This document shows positions 281 through 3,200 of a stretch of 64,000 nt of DNA, in pieces. The notes under the pieces are model-generated. The model worked only from the letters and a program-made list of their open reading frames with translations. It was not told where the DNA came from and did no database searches. Made by a program: the position numbers and the translations under genes. Position 1 is the first letter of the stretch. Each line of letters opens with the position of its first letter. The stretch comes from Ascidia mentula (taxonomy: Eukaryota; Chordata; Ascidiacea; Phlebobranchia; Ascidiidae), in NCBI GenBank assembly GCA_947561715.1, contig OX387205.1, forward strand, positions 15,071,001 through 15,135,000, in the 5' to 3' direction.

Positions 281-3200
281 CTCATGAATTCCTTAGTGGT
301 GAAGACAAGCTCGTGGTAGACGATCCACCTTGGTTGTTCCTCGAACAAACTACTATTAGGGTGAATGTGAACAGTTTGTTGTTGCTTTACTGTCCTGTAT
401 CCTGACTTGGTCAGTCGTGCTGTGTGGTAAAAGAAGCCAGCAGTGATCGCCTGAAAAAATAACAAGGAGCAAATATTAAAATGAATAAATGGAAACTGAA
501 AAGTCAGTAACTATTGATCAATAATACTTTCAGTACCGCAAACAGCTGTGCACCCTGTTTCAATCTATAGAGACTGATCCCTGCAGCTGGTGACTGTAGT
601 ACTTTAAGGTCAAAACAGTCTACACTGTTGTCTAGCTAATTATTATCGCTCTTGTGTTCCCCCAAAATATATCCACACTTAACAAAATCACATCATCCAA
701 GCAATTGTACAAGCACAGTTTCACGAACATAACAACATTCTAAATCAAACCTTCCTGATGGCTTCGGTGTCCCCAGGATTCGACGTGGGTTCGATTTCAA
801 CTCTTTCCATCAGTCCAGCCAACTGATCTCTTACATCGCGAGCTCGCTTCATCGATCGATGTTGGATGAAATTTTCAAAACACCACTGGATCGAGAAATC
901 CGTTCCTGCCCACTGTAATGTTAGAAGAACATGTCATGATTTGACATATGTGTCAGTAAATGCATCAATTCAATCAGTCTTGGTAAAAAATGATAAATAA
1001 TCCTAAGTCGTCTGTCTGTTTCAAGTTTCTACGACATATATATTTCGCCTGTCTGTGCAGACATCATCAGTATTATCAAACTCTCATTAGTCTTGGTAAA
1101 AAATAGTAAAATTAGATTAATATTTAGCAGATCAAAAATACAACACAAGGTATAAATTAGCACATGGGCAGCGATAAAACCATAAAGGTTATGGAGTCAG
1201 TCACCCACATGTCAGAAGACAAAACAGCATAAATTTTTTACCTGGTTATAAACATTCATCAAAGTAAGATGATCACCACCAGGAAGAAAGAAGTTCATCC
1301 TTGCATTGTCAGCGTGAACCATTTTATCTTTGGGTCGGTAAAATATTGAACTGTTCACTGACAACATTGCTACAATTGTCAGCATCTCGTCCGAACATTT
1401 GTATCTGAACAAAAATACATTTAAGGCGAAGAAAAAATAAATAAATCTGTTTTAAAAATGCTACATTAGCTACAATTCAACACAGTAATGTTCAACGCAA
1501 TGACATGCTTGTCACGATCGCCACACAGCGCAGGTCCATACTCAGATTACGGTAAATAAAACACAAAGTTCGATGAAATTAATGCCAAGATTTTCTTACT
1601 TTTCTGAAGCAAGAATTGCTTTGGAAAGCATCGGGTCGGCCGGAAACTCAGCCATCCTCCTCCCAAGTTTAGTGAGTTCCCCGAGGTGGTTGAGAGAACC
1701 AAGGGCGTAAAGTTGTTCCAGGGCAAGAACCAGGGTTTCATGGGGAGGGGGGTCCATAAAGTCGAAGTGGATGAGATCGTTGATTCCAAGACTGGAATGA
1801 AGGGAAAGAAGGTTTTGAGGTAAAAATGAGGTAAGATTTGAATATTGAGGAAATTTGTTGTTCGAGATTGTTTAAGATTTATTCAAAAATGTGCACATAT
1901 TTTCTGGTTCAGAGGTCGGCAACTTTTGGCATGCAAAGAGTGAAGTATGCTCTTTAGCACTAAACTGAAACTAGGGGCCGAAAAAGTTGCTGGTGATTAT
2001 TCTGATTCTTTAATTTACATGAAACAATTTACCCGTCATTATATGTTTTCAGTTAACCTGAAATACCTACAACTACAGCCAAGTTTGCCTATGTTTGTTT
2101 TTGAACATAATTGCTATTTTCTTTATTGCTATTGTCCTCTAACGAATTTATATAACAGTGGATGAAAGAACCACATGCGGATCCAAAGTGATCAGTTGTC
2201 GAAATATGTTCTTGTTTAAACAAAAATCTCCCACAGAAAAAGCATTATATTGTGCCCACTTCCCCACACATAATATCCCCCAGACCCCAGGATCACCTTT
2301 TCAACATAAGCACGACGTTGGCCAGATTAGTTCGTTGGATCTCTGGTACCGTGGAATCTTCCAACTCATGCATGTAAGCCCAGGCCGTGTAAAGACGGAA
2401 ACATTTACCAGGTCCAACCCGACCTGCTCGACCAGTTCGTTGGTTTGCCGATTGCTGGGGAAAATGGAAAGGGTTTATTTGATAGCAGGATTACAGTGTG
2501 GTATAATAATATGGTGTAAAATAAAAAGTGTTTATGTTTACTTAAAATCACACAACAAGTCATATAAGTATCTTGTTACTTGGTTGCTCTTTTTATTCTG
2601 TATGGGCATTAGTGATACATATTGATATTTAAAAACATTTTTGATTATCTTAACTATAACTTTCAATTGAATAACAACAGTAACTTTTTACACAATTCCA
2701 AGAATAAACTGAACGTAGTAAAGAATAAAACTTAAGCGCAAAAAACTGAAATATTTCATTTTGATCAGCAAAGTCGTCCGAAAGTCACACCAGCTGCACT
2801 GATGAGACCTTGTAGGTCGAAACAGTGGCCATCTGTATGCAGCTCACATAATACATATTATTGGATCCACTTTGCTTATCTTTGAAATATTCCAATCACA
2901 CTGAGTAATATTATTTTAACAAACATCACTTCGCAACTTAAAACAATACAGAAACCGTGTCGTTTCAAACCTTGGAGCAAGGGACCACTATGAGAGATTC
3001 CATTCCATTTCTTGCGTTGTAACTTTTCTGTTTACAGAATCCGGGGTCGATCACATACACAATACCGTCTATCGTCAGTGACGTTTCTGCTATGTTGGTT
3101 GCCACGACAACCTGGAACAACAAACGAAATTGCCCTGTTTTACTTTGGTCACTGTTAGTTGCGAACAGTGTTGATGAGAGAAAAACTACAAATCCCAGTT

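Follow-up and report, generated by a model that had tools for sequence, protein, structure and literature searches.

The hammerhead motif in an intron of the DHX16 gene of Ascidia mentula, lying within the 64,000-nucleotide stretch analysed here (the window), is not an isolated ribozyme: it is part of a copy that has lost its 5' portion, belongs to a dispersed unit of 285 bp and is set between target-site duplications (TSDs). The sequence characters of the unit mark it as a non-autonomous animal retrozyme of A. mentula. Its copies are head-to-tail multimers, most of them present as two head-to-head arms within one TSD of about 12 bp, with the outer ends of the two arms almost always at two different sites of the unit. 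The retrozyme is probably moved by Penelope machinery that would cut both target strands and copy a template whose hammerhead junction is uncut and which is most likely circular. The window copy is a dead single arm. The window locus itself is ordinary and its interest lies in the family to which it belongs.

Hammerhead motif and its setting

The features of the locus are as follows.

2792..2844, plus strand: type I hammerhead ribozyme motif with all stems paired (direct reading and descriptor scan)
2837..2838, plus strand: bond predicted to be cleaved, following A2837 (placed by H17 of the motif)
2760..2882, plus strand: single-arm copy of the retrozyme, truncated at its 5' end and with its other end at B, the long end site (genome search, 30-copy alignment, blastn)
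2747..2758, unstranded: left target-site duplication TGAAATATTTCA (12 bp, 1 mismatch)
2883..2894, unstranded: right target-site duplication TGAAATATTCCA (12 bp, 1 mismatch)
2455..2970, minus strand: DHX16 intron holding the copy (GT...AG ends, flanking frames, PDB matches of coding pieces)

Stem I consists of AGCUGCA (2792–2798) and UGCAGCU (2838–2844), giving seven unbroken pairs. The core CUGAUGA (2799–2805) is followed by stem II (GACCU 2806–2810, AGGUC 2814–2818; loop UGU 2811–2813) and the GAAA box (2819–2822). Stem III is made up of the pairs A2822-U2836, C2823-G2835, A2824-U2834 and G2825-C2833 with a loop at 2826–2832, and the cleavage nucleotide is A2837. The motif is of type I, possessing the core CUGANGA...GAAA...UH and three stems with stem I open. 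The original prediction had described a complete type I hammerhead with its parts in order and without a mismatch; each stem and core letter was read at 2792–2844, no mismatch was seen anywhere in stems or core, and the hammerhead is confirmed as a motif. Stem I, inspected for a loop 1/loop 2 tertiary contact, has no obvious internal loop; a mussel hammerhead that cleaves although it lacks most of the conserved contact nucleotides is described in PMC7229834. In a scan of both strands of the 64 kb the full type I descriptor matched this one locus, and it matched none of 300 dinucleotide shuffles. The minimum-energy fold (-17.6 kcal/mol) is a little more stable than that of the hammerhead (-16.2 kcal/mol), and the folding energy of the 63 nt around the motif is unremarkable (z -0.72) and uninformative alone.

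No Rfam family reached its gathering score in the window. The best score near the motif was that of Hammerhead_3, at 19.4 bits versus a gathering score of 48.5, a sub-threshold result of the kind which the original prediction had itself named as its refutation. In the genome RF00163 (type I) gave at least 32 matches, none above the cut-off (73 of 27659 candidates scored), and the Rfam models found no match on seven related loci. A gathering cut-off is a curator's threshold and no structural feature, and we judge these scores to reflect a limit of the models. The hammerhead is accepted in spite of them because the family evidence outweighs them, the motif belonging to a truncated copy of a dispersed repeat in which the ribozyme is mostly intact. 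Covariation is weak: one compensatory change in 15 pairs, a value equalled by 39 of 500 shuffles, lends the fold little support.

The prediction that the motif lies antisense in a DHX16 intron held: the intron at 2455–2970 on the minus strand has GT...AG ends, and two coding pieces have human DHX16 as their top PDB match. Since the ribozyme strand is antisense to DHX16, the gene's own transcript does not carry the ribozyme. The limits of the window copy follow from genome-search matches to positions 61–183 of the query and from blastn, which aligned 2760–2880 at 89.6% identity. With one hammerhead and about 123 of the 285 bp it may at best cut itself, and would be unable to release a circle; it is a dead single arm, ended at B. 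The further statement that short-stem-III hammerheads of this type travel with retrozymes and Penelope-like elements was right in so far as the repeat is of the retrozyme kind and the genome is rich in Penelope-like elements; stem III, with four pairs and a 7-nt loop, is however not the minimal Penelope form. Elsewhere in the window a tandem repeat with periods of 23, 46 and 69 bp occupies 56887–57040.

The 285-bp unit and its family

A 261-base query around the motif gave at least 54 genome matches (40 of 1709 candidates scored) which, the window itself excepted, were 85–95% identical. Alignment of 30 copies from 28 loci, including the window, revealed a sharp common 3' end, at which the query itself stops exactly so that the set is biased to it, and a variable 5' end; in these two respects the copies resemble reverse-transcribed insertions. 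At locus L009 the repeat forms a 3.5-copy tandem array with a period of 285. The 285-bp unit has a GC content of 0.477, and its longest ATG frame on the circularised unit is 46 aa; a frame long enough for the reverse transcriptase and GIY-YIG endonuclease of an autonomous Penelope-like element is absent from it. The ribozyme is intact in 22 of the 30 aligned copies and in 74 of 87 spanning array units, the others having one mispair (12 units) or a lost core (one unit). No LTR was found in the arrays read. The repeat accordingly combines a short non-coding tandem unit bearing a type I hammerhead with a GC content below 50%, no LTR and a TSD longer than 4 bp, the characters by which retrozymes are recognised.

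Architecture of the insertions

A genome search with the full unit (40 of 2147 candidates scored; 150 of 165 matches listed) yielded, from the matches listed, 40 loci, all of which were fetched and classed. There were 29 head-to-head double arrays, nine single arms, one complex locus and one unresolved locus (C67:12524273, L112). Twenty-three of the doubles were recognised at first and six more after a short second arm was found. Eight single arms have an A end and one a B end (sites defined below). The complex locus, L067, reads plus-minus-plus and contains a plus-to-minus junction; simple tail-to-tail pairs number zero among the 40 loci.

In 19 of 20 arrays the outer ends bear perfect direct repeats of 11–15 bp, some letters of which may be the element's own; in 11 of the 19 the repeat is 12 bp long. 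Their GC content is 0.20 versus 0.39 for the window. Among the 20 further loci a direct repeat of at least 9 bp was found in 15, while none was seen at L104, L111, L112 and L115, and L109 has one of only 7 bp. As the direct repeats flank whole double arrays, most double arrays look like single insertions. At the inner junction the two arms overlap by 1–9 nt in 12 of 19 arrays, and in the other seven the match stops short, leaving a gap of 3–83 nt.

The position of the outer ends follows a simple rule. In the unit numbering used here the ribozyme cut lies after position 115, and the outer ends fall at 128–148 (site A) or 153–174 (site B), as given by BLAST limits that may include a few chance-match letters. 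Beyond the cut, the distance is about 16 nt to site A and about 44 nt to site B. One A arm and one B arm were found in 28 of the 29 double arrays, the exception being L117 (a B end plus an end at 104), and A+A or B+B pairs were absent from the 29. With independent ends at one half and independent loci assumed, the absence of a like pair has a chance of about 2e-9. In the window-query set of 27 loci, which is biased to one B end, 16 have two orientations, and all 13 that were scored are A+B; the other three, L022 (identical with locus L112), L023 and L027, were left unscored. A Penelope-type insertion has head-to-head arms, of which one bears a tail, within a TSD. The retrozyme shows this pattern, with the two kinds of end in 28 of 29 doubles and direct repeats at most of the loci examined. 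Arm length is independent of the end site, the A arm being the longer in 9 of 19. All 38 measured arms (74–1680 bp) span the ribozyme cut; two short B arms, of 27 bp in L009 and 38 bp in L107, stop before it. No stem-loop recurred consistently at both site A and site B.

Likeness of the two arms

At three subfamily sites, which were picked after the comparison of arms had shown them to be fixed in both, the arms agreed in 42 of 42 comparisons in 16 arrays; permutations gave a mean of 0.46, and none of 5000 was as high. Per 100 sites, units of one arm differed at 0.77, the two arms of an array at 0.86 and separate arrays at 2.00. Both arms could be read at 99 variant sites; at 29 the variant was fixed in both, at one it was present in both unfixed, and at 69 it occurred in one arm only. 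Variants confined to a single array and fixed in both of its arms were found in L059 (two), L061, L064 and L071. The arms of L063, L064, L066 and L072 are 2.4–5.25 per 100 apart, as different as separate arrays. Most arrays, though not all, fit an origin of both arms from one RNA or from RNAs of one source.

Second retrozyme family

A decayed hammerhead of a second retrozyme family, with 78.7% identity to the unit of the first, lies at 18932–18992 of the window. Its dispersed relatives comprise 24 further loci, 20 of which were fetched. At 19 of these 20 the first-family unit aligns over 57–66 columns at 78–90% identity, chiefly the hammerhead, the query being centred on the hammerhead and so favouring hammerhead-only alignment; L155 aligns over 118 columns, and there are some other short matches between the unit and second-family loci. 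Measured from the tail string, the ends of this family lie at +8 to +13 in 7 of 20 and at +40 or beyond in 11 of 20, with the remainder at +22 (L147) and, in decayed sequence, at +14 (L144). L148 and L154 continue into shared sequence. Where the opposite arm was readable, L149 and L155 proved to be A+B, and L147 has a B end plus the end at +22. L157 was considered as B+B and left unscored; by eye its left part passes B into the sequence common to L148 and L154.

Penelope-like elements of the genome

A search for GIY-YIG domains gave at least 150 matches (150 of 382 candidates scored), which fall into 116 clusters. Among the 23 clusters with more than one copy there are 22 head-to-head arrangements, a single direct array and no tail-to-tail case. 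The frames of L041 and L034 contain GIY-YIG and RVT_1 domains, RVT_1 being under the curated cut-off in L034. Both outer ends are readable in 21 of the 22 head-to-head clusters (L138/L139 is unresolved), and each of the 21 has one tailless arm and one with a tail of about 27–80 nt. These comprise L039/L040, L041/L045 and two sets of 8 and 11 clusters. TSDs of 10–13 bp were found throughout the set of 8; in the set of 11, those of L120/L121 and L130/L131 were recognised by eye only and L128/L129 has no clean TSD. The tailless arms of L122/L123 and L128/L129 end short of the usual site. At L032, L047, L048 and L052, read partly by eye, the second arm is a pLTR only and the one-tail pattern agrees, bringing the resolved Penelope-like insertions with exactly one tailed arm of two to 25 of 25. 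L031, L049–L051 and L053, with one end visible, were not scored, and L056 was not counted, being a duplicate of L047: the two loci (C70:222802 and C70:527968) are about 305 kb apart with identical ends and target site, probably through duplication.

Two head-to-head arrays of long-frame Penelope elements have constant periods, of 2870 bp in L041-L045 (C67:6134028-6146916) and of 3493 bp in C52:9243979-9259647. Positions 41851–41965 of the window are 95.7% identical to the 3' region of the Penelope family with frames of about 953 aa (the C52:9243979 array) and include a hammerhead-like core. Further short matches to Penelope stretches occur at 56160–56197, 8522–8574 and 4840–4869 of the window.

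Among the Penelope ends read, no family has a tail homologous to that of the retrozyme. Retrozyme-like matches beside the Penelope frames of L030, L037, L048 and L058 were considered as shared pLTRs, a reading that alignment disfavoured. Since L030, L033 and L037, three of the five L030-group copies, carry a different hammerhead immediately after the frame, retrozyme copies lying close by are the better reading of these matches. At L058 (2700–3020, minus strand) a second-family retrozyme tail is directly followed by a 5'-truncated Penelope reverse-transcriptase frame, an ambiguous arrangement that may be a chimeric insertion or chance neighbours.

Proposed mechanism and alternatives

A Penelope reverse transcriptase/GIY-YIG endonuclease would cut both strands of the target with a stagger of about 12 bp, and from each 3' end reverse transcription of retrozyme RNA would be primed at either of two internal sites close to each other, A for one strand and B for the other. 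Copying would head towards the ribozyme cut, to be reached within 16 or 44 nt, and the two cDNA arms would then be joined head-to-head. The template would hold an intact hammerhead junction, as a circle (most likely) or an uncleaved multimer, since on a cleaved linear monomer copying would end after 16–44 nt, yet the arms cross the cut. In this scheme the activity of the ribozyme, the formation of circles and the choice of Penelope helper are all inferred. More tentatively, at somewhat less than an even chance, copying may be two-headed: one circle with two fixed starts about 28 nt apart, one of each being used, would be rolled into two joined multimer arms, and the hammerhead would be kept because only a closed circle is copied at length. 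Cutting and closing would put both start sites just past the junction.

The same retrozyme and Penelope machinery could instead copy a multimeric RNA transcribed from a tandem array and left uncleaved, with no circle. Tandem arrays exist and would yield multimeric RNA, and in the Poseidon assay of PMC11167929 insertion was unaffected in hammerhead mutants and the main substrate was RNA that had not been processed. The near identity of units and arms (0.77 and 0.86 versus 2.00 per 100) is as expected from one re-copied circle, but a homogeneous array would give the same; we consider this template unlikely, though it is the alternative to be taken most seriously. Snap-back self-priming, in which the inverted arms arise by hairpin copying, was proposed to act on antisense RNA when head-to-head junctions and palindromes were met in Penelope (PMC3846280). 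It is disfavoured and very improbable here: it predicts equal arms with like ends, whereas the arms are unequal (131 and 1680 bp in L061, for example) and the end sites differ between arms in 28 of 29.

LINEs are present in many animal genomes, and inversions arise in them by twin priming. The inverted copies could then derive from LINE-type target-primed insertion, or else from a later rearrangement of a satellite array. Either would be a long shot, since the same 3' region occurs in both arms, both arms can be multimeric, direct repeats bracket whole double arrays, there are two fixed end sites, and Penelope elements share the pattern in an insertion-pattern comparison that covered retrozymes and Penelope-like elements. 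Least probable of all is that the motif is a chance hammerhead-like sequence in ordinary intron DNA. The sub-threshold Rfam scores and weak covariation would suit that reading; it is opposed by the empty result in the 300 shuffles, by retention of the motif in dispersed copies and by a second repeat family that has mainly the hammerhead in common with the first. Copying by Penelope machinery of a junction-intact template remains the preferred explanation.

Comparison with known systems

Animal retrozymes were defined in PMC7229834, where Penelope elements are put forward as a strong candidate for moving them. The Ascidia repeat resembles the non-LTR retrozymes described there in its type I hammerhead, its short tandem unit (285 bp versus about 170–400), a GC content below 50%, TSDs longer than 4 bp and the presence of Penelope-like elements in the same genome, although 0.477 exceeds the <45% given in the legend to Figure 1C of that paper. 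It differs in its tunicate host, the main text of PMC7229834 containing no mention of tunicate, Ciona or ascidian, and in its head-to-head arrays with two fixed end sites, the word "inverted" likewise being absent from that text. Expression as linear and circular RNA is a feature of animal retrozymes (PMC7229834); for the Ascidia retrozyme the analysis covered genomic DNA.

According to PMC3846280, Penelope insertions contain a pLTR in inverted orientation and have a TSD of 9 bp, and one of the inverted pLTRs may carry a tail of 31 bp; head-to-head is the most frequent arrangement, for which self-priming on antisense RNA was suggested. The Poseidon protein is reported in PMC11167929 to cut and extend both strands and to start internally at two sites, between which lies the stretch that forms the tail; no difference in start site was seen between the strands. 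The retrozyme shares with these elements the head-to-head arrangement, the TSD, an optional tail of 30–40 nt at one end and two internal starts of reverse transcription (PMC3846280, PMC11167929). Unlike them it encodes no enzyme, is 285 bp long and forms multimers, and it has a tail without homology to the tails of the Penelope families read.

As far as seen, the retrozyme side of the insertion pattern, the almost invariable pairing of A with B and the likeness of the two arms are new; among the titles listed in a search of published, mostly freely accessible papers, none links retrozymes with Penelope insertion in this way. The plant LTR retrozymes of PMC7229834 are likewise non-autonomous hammerhead elements that spread via RNA circles, but they have type III hammerheads, LTRs, circles of 600–800 nt and 4-bp TSDs. 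In A. mentula the two-site, two-strand pattern common to retrozymes and Penelope-like elements makes the enzyme behind animal retrozymes directly testable, sets a numerical constraint on the action of Penelope enzymes, and suggests a reason for the ribozyme in transposition.
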